Notes under the pieces: generated by a model
The model's input: only the letters and a program-made list of their open reading frames with translations
Database searches by the model: none
What the model was told of the DNA's origin: nothing
Origin: Candidatus Kaiserbacteria bacterium CG10_big_fil_rev_8_21_14_0_10_45_20
GTDB lineage: Bacteria > Patescibacteriota > Minisyncoccia > Phycocordibacterales > Phycocordibacteraceae
Direction: 5' to 3'
DNA length: 32,045 nt
Assembly: GCA_002773335.1 (NCBI GenBank)
Contig: PFBH01000001.1
Location: 61,280 to 93,324, forward strand
Part shown: piece by piece, positions 12,385 to 30,126 of the stretch
Layout of the letters: each line of letters opens with the position of its first letter
Numbering within the stretch: position 1 is the stretch's first letter
Position numbers and translations under genes: made by a program

Positions 12385-14022
12385 ATGTTTACCCGCGTTA
12401 AAAACTCTCTGTTTGCTTTGTATACTCGTGCTCGATCTCTCCTTTCAAAACTGAGCACAAAACAAAAAATAATTGCCGGAACTGCCGTGGTAATTGTTTT
12501 GATTATCGCAGTAACGTTTTTAACAGGCTCAAAACCGTCTGAAGGCAACGACTTAACGGCTGTGCGTTCGGTCTCGCTACTAAAGATAGACGAATACGCG
12601 AGCAACCTCCCACCTCTCTCCCTCATAGGAACTGTGCGCTCACAGAGCGAAGCATCAATAACAGCAGAGACACAGGGGGTGGTATCGCGTGTGTACTACT
12701 CTCTCGGAGACTTTGTATCTGCCGGATCAATTGTTGCCGAACTTGAAAACGCTTCTCAACGAGCAGGGTTACTCCAAGCGCAAGCAGCGCGCGATGTTGC
12801 CCTTGCTAATTTGGATAAAATAAAACGCGGTACACGAGATGAGCAACTTTCTGTCTTGATTATAACGAGAGACAACGCGCAATCAGCCCTCCGTACCGCC
12901 GAACTGTCTGCCGAAAACGCTATACGAAGTTCGTACGCTACGCTTGCCGATGCCATTCAACGACACATTGACGCCACCATCTCAAATCCAAACTCAAACC
13001 AACCATCGTTCATTCCACAAACGTCAAACACACAACTGGAAATCGACGTCGAGTCAATGCGCCCTCTCATACAAATCATTCTCAACAGACACTCTTCTGT
13101 CGAAGAGAGTGGCGTTTTCCCTGCCTTAGACACAGAGCTCTCACGCCTCGCGCAAGAATTGGCATCCGCAAGAGACTTTGTAACCAACGTTATCTCTGCG
13201 CTTAATTCAGCGATACCAACCTCTTCTGTTTCCGAAACGCAAATTGCCGCGTGGAGAGCAGATGCAAACACTGCACTCTCAAGCATCAACACCTCTCGTT
13301 CAACAATCCTGACCACCATAGACACACTCGCCTCTCGTCGCTCATCACTCGAAATCGCAGAAAAGAATCTCGAGCAGGGGCAAACAGGTGGACAACTTGA
13401 AGACATTCAGGCCGCAGAAGCATCGCTTCGACAGGCAGAAGCAAGTGTACTGTCAGCGCAAGCTTCTTTTCAAAAAACGCTCCTCCGCGCACCTATTTCA
13501 GGGACACTTGAAACTATGGATCTTGAACGAGGTCAATTCGTCCCCGCACTCTCTAGCATTGCCCGCATTGCTAACATTAACGCGCTTGAAATTATTGCCT
13601 TTGCTTCTCAAAACGACCTACCGTACCTTCAAATCGGAGCCGAAGTGACAATAAACAGTGGTGTCAGTGGTGTCGTAACGCGCGTAGCACCGTCTTTAGA
13701 TCCATCAACAAAACGTATTGAGGTTCGCATTGGCGTACAGGAAGAAGTACCATTAACAAACGGGCAATCAACCGAAATAGCGATTGCGCGTACAACAACC
13801 AACGAAAGTATTGACATACGCGTACCACTCTCAGCAATAAAAGTTACCGCCGACTCATCTTTTGTATTTTCATTGAACGACGACAGTACGCTCCACGCAC
13901 ACCCCGTTACCATCGAATCAATTCTTGGAAACGATGTTGTCATTACTGGCGTTAGCCCAACGCTCACCATCATCAAGGACGCTCGAGGTCTCAAGGACGG
14001 CGAAAAAGTAAGAGTGCAATAG
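12385..14022 (+). CDS. RND efflux periplasmic adaptor (membrane fusion protein, HlyD/AcrA family)
   Basis: 545 aa; N-terminal TM, lipoyl halves 'ITAETQGVVSRVYYSLGDFVSAGSIVAELE' and 'LRAPISGTLETMDLERGQFV', long helical hairpin between. Confidence 0.92.
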   Translation: MFTRVKNSLFALYTRARSLLSKLSTKQKIIAGTAVVIVLIIAVTFLTGSKPSEGNDLTAVRSVSLLKIDEYASNLPPLSLIGTVRSQSEASITAETQGVVSRVYYSLGDFVSAGSIVAELENASQRAGLLQAQAARDVALANLDKIKRGTRDEQLSVLIITRDNAQSALRTAELSAENAIRSSYATLADAIQRHIDATISNPNSNQPSFIPQTSNTQLEIDVESMRPLIQIILNRHSSVEESGVFPALDTELSRLAQELASARDFVTNVISALNSAIPTSSVSETQIAAWRADANTALSSINTSRSTILTTIDTLASRRSSLEIAEKNLEQGQTGGQLEDIQAAEASLRQAEASVLSAQASFQKTLLRAPISGTLETMDLERGQFVPALSSIARIANINALEIIAFASQNDLPYLQIGAEVTINSGVSGVVTRVAPSLDPSTKRIEVRIGVQEEVPLTNGQSTEIAIARTTTNESIDIRVPLSAIKVTADSSFVFSLNDDSTLHAHPVTIESILGNDVVITGVSPTLTIIKDARGLKDGEKVRVQ

Positions 14023-24729: not shown

Positions 24730-27615
24730 TTACTTTGCCGGGCCAAAAAACGAACTGATAGTGTTTGCAAGAGACTGCGCTCCGCGACTAAACGCGTCAA
24801 AAAATGCCTGTCGCACATTCTCAACAATGAGTGTTGTGATAGAGTCTGCATCTACCACGCGCAGTGAGCGAATCTTAAATCCCATAGAGTCGTTCTGTGC
24901 TGTCGATCCAAAAAAGATAATATTTTCGTCTGTTGGATGAAAGGCCGGGGTTCCCACTCGATACTGACCAACACCCACATCAACGATTTTCTTATGCGCC
25001 AAAGACCAGTTCACACCGTCGGTACTGGTAAATAAATCAATCGTACTTTGCGGTTCTGCACGCTCTGCCAAGATACGGTACGTCCCCTCTTTTAGGTTAT
25101 AGGTAACATCAACATTTGCAAAATGCCCATCAGTGCCATACGAGACACGTTCAATGGTGTCAACGTTAACCCCTGATTTCCCGAGATTGATTTTTACAAC
25201 ACCGCCGTGGATAGTGTTGTCATTTGCATACAATTCAACCTCACCTTTTCCATTTACTGTCGCAGAAGGAAGCCAGTGGTGTCGCAACAGTAATTTTGGT
25301 GTCGACCAATTAATGCCATTGTTTGCCCAAGATGTTGAGTAATACAAGTGGTTATTTCCCGCAACCAGACCGTCCTCTCCTTCTTCAACTCCGGTAAGGT
25401 ACATAATGTAGTATCCGCGCCCTGTGTTGTTAGAGTCAACGAGGCGTACTATAGACGGGTCATTTAAGTGGTTAAATCCTTTAGCGGTTGCGTCGATAAC
25501 AGTTCGTATATTAGAGCAGGTAGAGCCATCCTCAGAACAGTCGGCAACGTAAATATTATCGTGTCGTTGCCCTTTGTTCATCCACCCACCAAAGTACATT
25601 CGCATTCCATCGTTTCCAAAAATTAAATCGGCAGAATACACATTGAATCCGTTAATGACAATGTTTTGCTCTGGAGGTTTTGGTACTGTCGTATTTTGTG
25701 AATCCACAGTAATTTGTACCGTGTCGAGAACAGAAGAATTTCCAAAGTTGGATTGCCATATTAATTTTGCGTCATAAGTACCCGCGTTTCTGTATGTATG
25801 TAATCCTACCCATGATGCCGTACACGCAGATACACCGGAGAGATTTGGTTTACACAATATGCCCTGTTGTCCATCACCAAAATCTAACTGTACAGACCCA
25901 TCCGGTTGAGATACGCTCAAGAAACTTTCAAGGTTTGCAGTGAACGTAACTGCAAGCGGAGCACGTCCTGAAGTGGGACTCGCTGTAAGGTTTGCTTGCG
26001 GTAACTGCACAGATTTAATTTGAATAGACACTTCTGCTACTGCTATTTCTTCTGGGTAGAAAAGGCCACGACACCCAACCAACCACCGATACCTCGCAAA
26101 CCCACCAAAATCACGCCAGTCAGAGAGTGGGTACGGAACGAGCGTTGCTATACCCTCTGTTTGACCAGCCGAATACCCAAGGTGTTGCTCCCAATTAACA
26201 GAACCCTTCTCTGTAACTCTTATCGGCTGACTGCATACAAGCGCGTTTTTTGAATTCCACGTAAGGTTTACCGACTCTCCTGCGCTCACGGTAGACGGAG
26301 AGGCTGTGAGTGTCACTTGCGCTGATCGCTCAGGTATTGGATCCACAGCACCTCCATTACGAGTAAGAATACTTCGTATGACATCAATCGTTCTCTGGTC
26401 TGCGCCAAAGCTTTCAAGTAATCCAATGAGGCTTTTTAACCGAGCTTCAGATGTCTGTACGTGACCAGTTGAGCTTGATGAGTACCCTCGTAAAACCGCA
26501 TCAACGTCGTCAATAGCGCTCTGGGGAATACCGAAGCTTTGCATCAAGGCGACCAATGCTTGTATTTGAGATTCCGTTAGTATCGGCTGAACCTTCACTT
26601 CAACCACTGCAGACGATCCTTTTCCTAAATCATTGCTACATTCAATACGGTAAGAAAATGTTCCAAATGGCGAAACAACCATTGAGCCTACTTTTGGAAC
26701 TGAGACGTACGCACCCTCTTTATCTGCAAAATTTCCTATACAGGGATACGTAATGCTTGACCGCCACGTAATAGTTGAAGACTCTCCCCTCTTTATCTGA
26801 GACGGACTTGCCGACATTGTTATAAACGGATGAGGTGCTACCGGCGATAGGGGTCTAGTAGGCGGTGTCGTTACTGACGGAGGGATAAAGTTCGGGCTCG
26901 ATGGTGTGCCGTCTGACGGCTCTTGTTCAGAGCTGGCTATTGTAGGTATGTCTCTGGTCATCTCTTCTGCCAATACGCGACGAGTGGAAGGTCCAACCAG
27001 TCCGAATCCCGTCGTCTGCGGAGACCCATCGCTCACAACGCCGGTACGTGCTTGAAATTTTTGCACAGCCTCTTGCGTTACCGGACCAAAGTAGCCCGTT
27101 ACCTCGGGGTACGTATAGTCACCTTGATTTTTTAGAAATTCTTGTAAAAGTCGCACGTCGTCTCCCTTCGATCGCAGTGTCAGTGTTCTTGTTATGGGCA
27201 ACTCACTTGAGCGATACGACTGTGCTGAAACAGAGCTGACTGCAGAAGGCTCTACCACAGCAACGTTTGGAGTGCTCTCAACTGGTGCGCTGTTCGAACA
27301 GTACGCATTCATTGCTTTCCGTGTAGCAGGACCAACGGCGCCATACCCCGTTGTTGAAGGCGTACCAGTTGAAACGATACCAGTTCTTTTTTGAAAACGT
27401 TGTACTGCCTGTTGCGTAGAGAGGCCAAAGTAACCGGAAATTTGAGAGTCTGTGTAATCACCTGTTGACTGTAAAAATGATTGAAGGCTTGAGACGCTAC
27501 TGTCCCGCGCTCCGGGGTAAAGACTATTTTCTAACCTAACGCAGTCTGTTGCCACTGCAGACTGAAAAGAAAATAAGAGTAAAAATACAAACGCAAAATA
27601 AATAATTTTTTTCAT
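24730..27615 (-). CDS. large secreted protein: two peptidoglycan-binding-like repeats, Ig/PKD-like domains, C-terminal beta-propeller glycosidase-like region
   Basis: Start MKKIIYFAFVFLLLFSFQSAVATDC at 27615 (signal peptide). Repeats 'GYFGLSTQQAVQRFQKRTGIVSTGTPSTTGYGAVGPATRKAM' and 'GYFGPVTQEAVQKFQARTGVVSDGSPQTTGFGLVGPSTRRVL'; 'SGRAPLAVTFTANL...LDFGDGQQ' PKD-like; 'DGMRMYFGGWM...HLNDPSIVRL...GYYIMYLTG' propeller-like. Confidence 0.85.
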   Translation of the reverse strand: MKKIIYFAFVFLLLFSFQSAVATDCVRLENSLYPGARDSSVSSLQSFLQSTGDYTDSQISGYFGLSTQQAVQRFQKRTGIVSTGTPSTTGYGAVGPATRKAMNAYCSNSAPVESTPNVAVVEPSAVSSVSAQSYRSSELPITRTLTLRSKGDDVRLLQEFLKNQGDYTYPEVTGYFGPVTQEAVQKFQARTGVVSDGSPQTTGFGLVGPSTRRVLAEEMTRDIPTIASSEQEPSDGTPSSPNFIPPSVTTPPTRPLSPVAPHPFITMSASPSQIKRGESSTITWRSSITYPCIGNFADKEGAYVSVPKVGSMVVSPFGTFSYRIECSNDLGKGSSAVVEVKVQPILTESQIQALVALMQSFGIPQSAIDDVDAVLRGYSSSSTGHVQTSEARLKSLIGLLESFGADQRTIDVIRSILTRNGGAVDPIPERSAQVTLTASPSTVSAGESVNLTWNSKNALVCSQPIRVTEKGSVNWEQHLGYSAGQTEGIATLVPYPLSDWRDFGGFARYRWLVGCRGLFYPEEIAVAEVSIQIKSVQLPQANLTASPTSGRAPLAVTFTANLESFLSVSQPDGSVQLDFGDGQQGILCKPNLSGVSACTASWVGLHTYRNAGTYDAKLIWQSNFGNSSVLDTVQITVDSQNTTVPKPPEQNIVINGFNVYSADLIFGNDGMRMYFGGWMNKGQRHDNIYVADCSEDGSTCSNIRTVIDATAKGFNHLNDPSIVRLVDSNNTGRGYYIMYLTGVEEGEDGLVAGNNHLYYSTSWANNGINWSTPKLLLRHHWLPSATVNGKGEVELYANDNTIHGGVVKINLGKSGVNVDTIERVSYGTDGHFANVDVTYNLKEGTYRILAERAEPQSTIDLFTSTDGVNWSLAHKKIVDVGVGQYRVGTPAFHPTDENIIFFGSTAQNDSMGFKIRSLRVVDADSITTLIVENVRQAFFDAFSRGAQSLANTISSFFGPAK

Positions 27616-27713
27616 AAAAATAAGTGGAAAACCAAACCTTCCTAGTATGCCTACATAGTACACTCGTTTTTTGTAAGGCCATTGAGGTAATCCACTCCCC
27701 TTATATTGCCATA

Positions 27714-27808
27714 TACGCACCGTGGGTGTATTGTAGCCGACGCAGAAGCTGTTGCAGTATTGTCTCTGCTTCTGCTACAAGCCCGACGAAGGCTTTTATT
27801 TATTTTTT
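27714..27808 (+). promoter_or_regulatory. structured leader upstream of nhaD with a terminator-like element
   Basis: Hairpins: CACC-GTG-GGTG; TTGTA-(GCCGAC)-GCAGAAGC...GCTTCTGC-TACAA; then AAGCC-CGACGAA-GGCTT followed by TTATTTATTTTTT. Confidence 0.5.
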
Positions 27809-27821
27809 ATCGAATACTTTT

Positions 27822-29135
27822 ATGTTACTTACCATTTCCGCAACAATACTGTTTGTGGTTGGATATATTCTTATAACGCTTGAGCATCGATACGAGCTCC
27901 ATAAAGCCCTCCCCGCCGCCGCGTTAGGTGCTTTTCTTTGGATACTTATTGCCATTGTCGACAGTCCACACCTTGAAGAATCTATGACTCATATGGGTTC
28001 AGAAATCTTTGGGCTTATTATGTTCCTCCTTGCTGCGATGGCGCTGGTAGAGATACTTACCCACTATAAACTTTTTGATCTTATTCGAGTAAAAATTCTC
28101 TCTCTTGGACTCCACGATCGAAAACAGCTTTGGGTAATGGGTGCGGTGACATTCTTCCTTTCACCAATCATCGATAACCTCACTGCAACCTTGGTGATAC
28201 TTGCGATCAGTACACGTTTCTTTGCTGGGGCAAACTTGGTGCGCGCCGCAGCAATAATTGTTATCTCTGCAAACGCTGGAGGCGCGTGGTCACCAATCGG
28301 TGACGTTACCACCATTATGTTGTGGTTAGCGGGCAAATTCACTGCTTTCGAGGTAATTGCGTGGGGTTTCCTTCCTTCGCTTGCACTTTTCTTTGTAAGT
28401 ACCTTTATGCTCACACGAGGTGTCTCTGAAGACGCTCATGATATTGAGGAAGAGAAAGTGGTGCTTCGCGCTTCAGAAAAAGCGGTCATCACGGTTGGTC
28501 TCCTTTCTTTCCTCTTTCCGGTTCTCGTGAGCCGTATTGGGTTGGAACCGTATTTCGGCCTCATCTTCGGACTCGGCTTGGTAGGTATGATGATCTCATT
28601 CTTTAAGCTCCGTGATTTAAAAAAGATACGAGAGAATGGTGACTCAAAAGAAAATCTTAATGGTATTGTTCCTACTCACCTTCACTCTGATATTGATAAG
28701 AGTTTAGCGAAAGTAGACTTAGGAAGTTTGATTTTCTTTGCGGGTATTCTTCTTGCCGTAGGTGCTCTTGAACACTTGGGAATTCTAGAAACTATTTCTC
28801 ACCTACTCTTAGGGCAAGATCCAACCTTTATGCGTTACTTCATCGGCAATGGTGCTCTCGGTCTCCTCTCAGCAGTTATGGACAACATCCCCCTTACCGC
28901 TGCCGCAATGAGTATCCTACACACAACTGACTCTGCCATCTGGGTGTTGCTCGCAATAACCGCAGGAACTGGTGGATCTCTACTTGCGATTGGTTCTGCT
29001 GCCGGTGTGGTTGCAATGGGTAAGGTAAAAGAGCTTACTTTCTTCCGCTACCTCAAAATTGCAACTCTTCCGGCAGCAGCGGGATACGTTGCCGCAGTGA
29101 CGGTGTGGTACATGCAGTATATGTTCTTTGGATAG
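27822..29135 (+). CDS. nhaD: sodium:proton antiporter NhaD-like
   Basis: Start MLLTISATILFVVGYILITLEHRYELHKALPAAALG at 27822; 'SPIIDNLTATLVILAI', 'SANAGGAWSPIGDVTTIMLWLAGK', 'SAVMDNIPLTAAAM'. Confidence 0.92.
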   Translation: MLLTISATILFVVGYILITLEHRYELHKALPAAALGAFLWILIAIVDSPHLEESMTHMGSEIFGLIMFLLAAMALVEILTHYKLFDLIRVKILSLGLHDRKQLWVMGAVTFFLSPIIDNLTATLVILAISTRFFAGANLVRAAAIIVISANAGGAWSPIGDVTTIMLWLAGKFTAFEVIAWGFLPSLALFFVSTFMLTRGVSEDAHDIEEEKVVLRASEKAVITVGLLSFLFPVLVSRIGLEPYFGLIFGLGLVGMMISFFKLRDLKKIRENGDSKENLNGIVPTHLHSDIDKSLAKVDLGSLIFFAGILLAVGALEHLGILETISHLLLGQDPTFMRYFIGNGALGLLSAVMDNIPLTAAAMSILHTTDSAIWVLLAITAGTGGSLLAIGSAAGVVAMGKVKELTFFRYLKIATLPAAAGYVAAVTVWYMQYMFFG

Positions 29136-29264
29136 AAACGTACTTTAGCTTTTAAGCTCTAGGCTTTATTTGGTTTTTGGACTTCTGTGCTCTGTGTTTT
29201 ATTTGGACTCTGTTTCCTGTGCTTTGGCAGTTTTTCCTATCTAAGCACTGTCTTTTAGCTAACG

Positions 29265-29340
29265 CCTAATGTCCTAACAACTTAATCCTCCTAACCTCCT
29301 AATCCTCCCTAATAACCTAATTATTCGCCTAAGGTCCTAA
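29265..29340. repeat. CCTAA-rich (TTAGG on minus) degenerate low-complexity tract
   Basis: Eight CCTAA pentamers in 76 bp, e.g. CCTAATGTCCTAACAACTTAATCCTCCTAACCTCCTAATCCTCCCTAATAACCTAA. Confidence 0.8.
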
Positions 29341-29357
29341 CAGGCTAGTGTATTAAC

Positions 29358-29389
29358 AAAAACCACCCCGTTTTCACGGGGTGGTTTTT
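29358..29389. terminator. bidirectional intrinsic terminator
   Basis: AAAAACCACCCCG-TTTTCA-CGGGGTGGTTTTT between convergent nhaD and the 29416 gene. Confidence 0.93.
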
Positions 29390-29415
29390 ATTTATTCCAA
29401 ACTAAACAATATTAG

Positions 29416-30126
29416 TTATTGAGCGGTACGGAATGTTTTTGGCCATGTCATTGTCATATTTCCCACATTATCAATACTTCGAACAATGTAGTAGTACGTT
29501 GTATCTGCTTGCAGGTTTGAGACCGTAACAGTGTGACTGTTTTGCAGACCACCGCTGTCAGTGGCAAGAGTTCCGCTTACATACGGTTTTTGGCGAGGTC
29601 CCGTAGCTTCGTTAAATTGAAGTGGCGTACTGCTCCAATACACTTGACCTTGTGTTGCCTCGTTACTTGTCCACGTAAACGTTGCGTTGGTGTTTGTGTG
29701 CTGAACACTAGGGATACTTAAAGTGGGTGAGGTGTCAAACGATGTTTGTGTTTCTCCTCCTCCAGACACCAGAAGGACGTTAATTCGTGCCATTGTCTTT
29801 GGCCCAACCCGACCATACCCTGTTGTGGCAGGTGTTCCTTGAGATACAATTCCCTGCTCTGCCTGAAACCTTTCTACTGCCGCCTTGGTAAGCTGTCCAT
29901 AGTACCCGGTAACGAGTCTTTCAGGATAGATGCTTATGTCTGTAGCTAAGTATGCCTGAAGCTCGGTCACCTCTGCACTACGGTCACCAATGTCTAACTG
30001 AGTCGTTATTGCGGCAAGTGCCTGCTGAGCCCCTAAAAACATAACGGCAAATACCGTAATCGCTATAAAGCCTGATAAGAGGCTCAAGTGCGAAGTGTTT
30101 GTTTGTAAATGTGTTGTTTTATTCAT
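29416..30126 (-). CDS. secreted protein with peptidoglycan-binding-like domain and C-terminal FN3-like domain
   Basis: 236 aa; N-terminal TM/signal; 'GYYGQLTKAAVERFQAEQGIVSQGTPATTGYGRVGPKTMARI'; 'ADTTYYYIVRSIDNVGNMT'. Confidence 0.85.
   Translation of the reverse strand: MNKTTHLQTNTSHLSLLSGFIAITVFAVMFLGAQQALAAITTQLDIGDRSAEVTELQAYLATDISIYPERLVTGYYGQLTKAAVERFQAEQGIVSQGTPATTGYGRVGPKTMARINVLLVSGGGETQTSFDTSPTLSIPSVQHTNTNATFTWTSNEATQGQVYWSSTPLQFNEATGPRQKPYVSGTLATDSGGLQNSHTVTVSNLQADTTYYYIVRSIDNVGNMTMTWPKTFRTAQ

Follow-up and report, generated by a model that had tools for sequence, protein, structure and literature searches.

A candidate attenuator-type leader with a 5′-terminal hairpin upstream of the antiporter gene nhaD in a Patescibacteria genome

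The short region upstream of nhaD in the genome studied here is tentatively read, at somewhat less than even confidence, as an attenuator-type leader with a stable 5′-terminal hairpin and a leaky terminator. The computed features comprise the hairpins and their order, a predicted promoter, the absence of known RNA families, and an architecture common to one orthologue. From these we infer a start site, termination, regulation and any signal acting on it. The region would consist of the nhaD promoter and a short 5′ leader, with RNA starting near 27741. The first hairpin may protect the 5′ end of the message, as 5′-terminal hairpins do in bacterial mRNAs, and just 5′ of the start codon the RNA would fold into a second, weak hairpin that resembles an intrinsic terminator and ends in a U-rich run. 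Partial premature termination there, probably aided by NusA, could keep nhaD expression low or tune its level.

The window, that is, the whole stretch of 32,045 nucleotides analysed, is part of a 0.6-Mb genome from the Patescibacteria (CPR). The intergenic region 5′ of nhaD measures 205 bp and holds every element listed in an earlier sequence-only reading of this DNA, whose letters and coordinates proved accurate: AGCCGACG at 27735–27742, AGCCCGACG at 27780–27788, GGCT at 27791–27794, and the TTGTA/TACAA arms. The features of the locus are as follows.

24730–27615, − strand: large surface-protein gene, divergent from nhaD
27706–27711, + strand: predicted −35-like hexamer TTGCCA, 9/12 consensus matches
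27729–27734, + strand: predicted −10-like hexamer TATTGT after a 17-nt spacer, overlapping the hairpin outer arm TTGTA
27731–27780, + strand: full inverted repeat TTGTAGCCGACGCAGA / TCTGCTTCTGCTACAA, 16-nt arms, 88% complementary
27742–27775, + strand: 5′-terminal hairpin of the predicted transcript, GCAGAAGC (27742–27749) pairing with GCTTCTGC (27768–27775), pairing probability >0.99 for RNA from 27741
27779–27795, + strand: weak terminator-like hairpin AAGCC-CGACGAA-GGCTT, 5 bp, −4.2 kcal/mol
27794–27809, + strand: U-rich run TTTTATTTATTTTTTA, seen in the sequence 3′ of the terminator-like hairpin
27822–29135, + strand: nhaD, Na+/H+ antiporter, 437 aa, assigned by NF038006 NhaD_1, CitMHS and start-site alignment

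By its sequence, the gene at 27822 is a genuine NhaD antiporter: its product scores 189 bits against the NF038006 NhaD_1 model (cut-off of 80) and falls below the cut-off of the stricter TIGR00775 model (254.9 versus 577.1). The ATG at 27822 is backed by the N-termini of orthologues. Because the frame stays open upstream to a GTG at 27624, 27624–27821 could in principle be coding, as an N-terminal extension of NhaD or a small ORF; however, the start codons of the orthologues correspond to Met 27822, with stop codons a short distance before them, which rules out the extension and leaves a coding role for this interval scarcely credible.

Two peptidoglycan-binding-type surface protein genes flank nhaD (24730–30126), and no regulator gene adjoins it. 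Downstream, 29140–29345 is rich in short CCTAA-type repeats and is followed by a strong bidirectional terminator at 29358–29389. Low-complexity intergenic repeats of this kind (CTAAGCACTAA, TCCTAACTTCCT) are common in the same genome, of which about 200 kb was available for all genome-wide comparisons reported here. In those 200 kb, the palindromic 13-mer GACGTCGGACGTC has five copies (C2:13165, C5:2505, C5:2545, C6:2052 and C6:8705). At least two of them cap long intergenic hairpins, and the 13-mer may represent a repeat element or else a signal akin to those for DNA uptake.

The promoter prediction sets the frame for the leader. TTGCCA-17-TATTGT, with a PWM score of 9.5, is the clear best of the intergenic region and is on a par with the best promoters of divergent genes in this genome, and on this model nhaD transcription most likely starts at about 27741. 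The predicted leader would then comprise 81 nt, holding in order the 5′-terminal hairpin, the weak terminator-like hairpin, the U-rich run and the ATG. Since the −10 box doubles as the TTGTA outer arm, RNA from about 27741 would carry the inner hairpin only, beginning at nucleotide 2, and the 13-bp interrupted stem of the sequence-only reading is probably not wholly transcribed.

All three hairpins described in that reading were located, including a small one, GCACC/GGTGT, at about 27718–27730; only the large hairpin exceeds chance. The inverted repeat at 27731–27780 folds at −18.7 kcal/mol (z −3.15), as good a value being reached by 2 of 200 dinucleotide shuffles, and the 27741–27821 fold also departs from its shuffles (z −2.81). 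On the + strand of the window, the large hairpin takes eighth place among non-overlapping 50-nt folds ranked by strength and, two bona fide terminators aside, is the strongest intergenic one. In the register first drawn for it, with a 6-nt GCCGAC bulge, the long stem reaches −12.5 kcal/mol, against −18.7 for a register with 1×1 mismatches. The same repeat might instead act as DNA, namely as the operator of a dimeric nhaD repressor with its dyad over the −10 box and start site. Its perfect 8-bp arms, 18 nt apart and spanning roughly −10 to +35 relative to the predicted start, suit such a role; yet the ~200 kb compared contain a single copy of the 8-nt arm pattern, the hairpin arms of the closest orthologue differ, and a regulator gene is lacking beside nhaD, so that an operator is considered unlikely.

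The terminator-like hairpin is a different matter. The AAGCC..GGCTT stem at 27779–27795, followed by TTATTTATTTTTT, is present with its U-rich tail as had been claimed, but is weak and, taken alone, lies at chance level: when its stretch was shuffled 200 times, 48 of the shuffles folded as well, and a scan for terminator-like elements found one in 600 bp where 0.6 was expected. True terminators in ~200 kb of the genome mostly have long stems, at about −20 to −30 kcal/mol. Because the upstream gene is divergent, the element cannot serve an annotated + strand gene upstream. These values, together with the absence of such a leader from most nhaD orthologues, feed the main competing explanation, in which the 5′ hairpin merely stabilises the mRNA or has no role, the terminator-like element arose by chance in an A/T-rich leader, and nhaD is constitutive. 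This explanation is a real possibility, held with less than even confidence and rather doubtful; against it stand the same order of parts in the closest orthologue and control leaders with hairpins, both described below.

Whether any part of the leader could switch depends on where the RNA begins. The sequence-only reading proposed that the two CCGACG copies compete for GGCT; this pairing was computed and rejected, AGCC at 27735–38 pairing with GGCT at 27791–94 with a probability of 0.000, and the predicted start leaves most of the 5′ copy outside the transcript. For RNA starting at 27731 or later, the terminator-like hairpin forms with a probability of ~0.99, and when RNA from 27741 was folded, it had no competing alternative. 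For starts at 27715–27723, CGTGGG pairs with CCCGACG, suppressing the terminator-like hairpin to a probability of 0.03–0.04; this is the sole switch-like fold computed, and it hangs on an unproven start. A novel cation- or pH-sensing riboswitch could be built on it, with this pairing disrupting the terminator and a ligand tipping the balance, and Na+ and Li+ riboswitches do regulate nhaD in other bacteria, in one case in a triple arrangement with terminators (PMC9646797). However, promoters for the upstream starts are poor (3.0–3.7 versus 9.5), and the leader, at only about 80–107 nt, has no demonstrable conserved unpaired core.

Searches for known families and for homologous leaders also speak against a riboswitch. 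A cmscan against all 4227 Rfam families gave no match to the nhaD leader at the gathering threshold, and at E ≤ 10 it still matches none of these models, those of the Na+-I, Li+-I and Li+-II riboswitches included; nor did the leader of the closest orthologue give a credible Rfam match at the gathering threshold or at E ≤ 10. When the leader was compared by BLAST with 61 genomes, only short chance matches came back, the best of them (L005) inside a coding gene. A single-sequence covariance model run on 100 genomes recovered the leader itself, its own reverse complement and chance-level matches only; no homologous leader was found in the 99 relatives and none at other nhaD loci. A single-protein search for nhaD across contigs yielded no relative; an alignment-based search yielded 80 nhaD loci, and no motif common to the window leader occurs in 15 inspected leaders of these. 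The 10-mer CGACGAAGGC, which the region upstream of nhaD in G130 shares with the leader studied here, lacks a hairpin context and does not recur. Covariation cannot be counted, because there are two leaders only and that of the nearest orthologue is not alignable. The analysis gives no indication of a ligand-binding aptamer in the nhaD leader, or of sensing. Given the missing Rfam match and homologous leader, the unsupported competing pairing and the unmeasurable covariation, the riboswitch half of the earlier label "attenuator/riboswitch-like" was dropped; being unsupported, it carries no weight here, and the riboswitch is rated very improbable. The attenuator half is kept as a hypothesis because the closest orthologue repeats the order of parts.

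nhaD itself is patchy in this lineage. None of 105 other genomes compared from the family has it, and 23 of 397 genomes of the order match at E ≤ 1e-10, distant matches included. The absence from the family, together with a 70% identical copy in another one, makes horizontal transfer or repeated loss likely. The closest orthologue, from another family (G906, 70% identity; locus L165), has a comparable leader (1369–1491): after a divergent upstream ORF comes the promoter TTGCAT-17-TATAAT, a hairpin that begins 4 nt downstream of the predicted start, AGACGGCTTGCCGTCT with a U-run, a second weak hairpin with its own U-run and, later, the ATG. Its terminator-like hairpin is the stronger, at −7.4 to −8 kcal/mol versus −4.2 in the window. 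Alignment of the two leaders does not rise above chance (171 of 1000 shuffles score as well), and the likeness is therefore one of architecture only, which convergence or coincidence could explain. Among 24 other nhaD loci examined, two pairs of which look like the same genomes, 22 lack a terminator-like hairpin; of the remaining two, L119 has one that precedes the promoter, and the matches in L036 are weak. In several nhaD orthologues the leader is very short or none is visible.

Two further observations concern these loci. Stretches of GTTCTTTGA or GTTCTTTTA type, which are boxA-like, stand a few nucleotides 5′ of AAAAGGAG before nhaD or nhaD-like genes in L119, L122 and L002; the combination may reflect a leader element that other Patescibacteria lineages have conserved. 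In G100 (L026/L033, C2:86539–87749), nhaD is split over two adjacent frames, which suggests a frameshift or a pseudogene.

Leader hairpins before other genes bear on how the nhaD leader is read. Control divergent leaders of the same genome contain a terminator-like hairpin in 3 of 30 cases, and two of the three, nusA and typA, each show a promoter, a hairpin with a T-run and the ATG, as true leaders would, which argues against the terminator-like element at nhaD being a chance feature. Among relatives, nusA has a terminator-like hairpin within 130 nt of its start in 26 of 30 genomes sampled, the genome studied here included, often with TTGACA/TATAAT just 5′ and with recurrent stems GTCCGC..GCGGGC or AGTTCGCC..GGCGGGCT.

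L183–L212, and own genome C3 upstream of 9226 (− strand in C3): nusA loci, hairpin with a T-run before the ATG

No Rfam match was found in the nusA loci scanned. Terminators in leaders are generally weaker than those at 3′ ends, and the shortness of regulatory ones has led to their being overlooked (PMC2965389); in B. subtilis, termination in the nusA leader is stimulated by NusA (PMC12288461). By analogy, the nusA leader hairpin is probably a Patescibacteria counterpart of the rimP-nusA attenuator already described. In a small set of leaders with good predicted promoters, the other terminator-like cases were nearly all nusA or nhaD, typA being the exception. Contig C1 of the same genome (L158, ~13580–13633) contains a candidate leader terminator, in which a predicted promoter and then GAAGCTCCGTTTTAAGGCGGAGTTTTT lead to the ATG of a GTPase gene, likened by its sequence to typA/bipA. 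With hairpin leaders before nusA across the order and before typA here, the architecture recurs in the lineage, which makes leader termination a plausible device of general use there.

For the attenuator, then, were counted the strong hairpin, a predicted start at the hairpin base, the divergent upstream gene, the architecture of the closest orthologue, and the nusA and typA leaders; against it were counted the 5-bp chance-level hairpin, the unalignable leaders, the 22 of 24 loci without a hairpin, and the lack of a competing fold. A bolder version, in which the leader is a minimal, fast-evolving regulatory RNA whose two hairpins serve to sense Na+, pH or NusA-dependent pausing, is judged improbable; if true, it would be an ion-responsive attenuator of a kind not described before. 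Almost nothing is known of gene regulation in Patescibacteria. Should leader termination indeed tune nhaD, short premature terminators would be doing the work of dedicated regulators in these reduced genomes. With a shared architecture at nusA and typA, the idea could then be tested across the group.

Several known systems share parts of this arrangement. The ompA-type 5′-terminal stem-loops stabilise bacterial mRNAs, and both nhaD orthologues likewise have a stable hairpin 2–5 nt from the predicted 5′ end; unlike the ompA type, the nhaD 5′ hairpin is followed by a terminator-like element. The Na+-I (DUF1646), Li+-I/Na+-II (nhaA-I) and Li+-II (nhaA-II) riboswitches precede cation transporters, occasionally nhaD, and some of them use an intrinsic terminator (PMC9646797, PMC9337991); unlike in kefB, the nhaD leader lacks a mutually exclusive aptamer–terminator pairing. 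The leader of rimP-nusA-infB carries, 3′ of its promoter and 5′ of the start codon, a short terminator-like hairpin and U-run, and little or nothing else in it is conserved (PMC2965389). Relative to this type, the nhaD hairpin is weaker, lacks a conserved motif and has an architecture common to one orthologue only, but the nhaD leader resembles it in also placing a hairpin and U-run between promoter and start codon.
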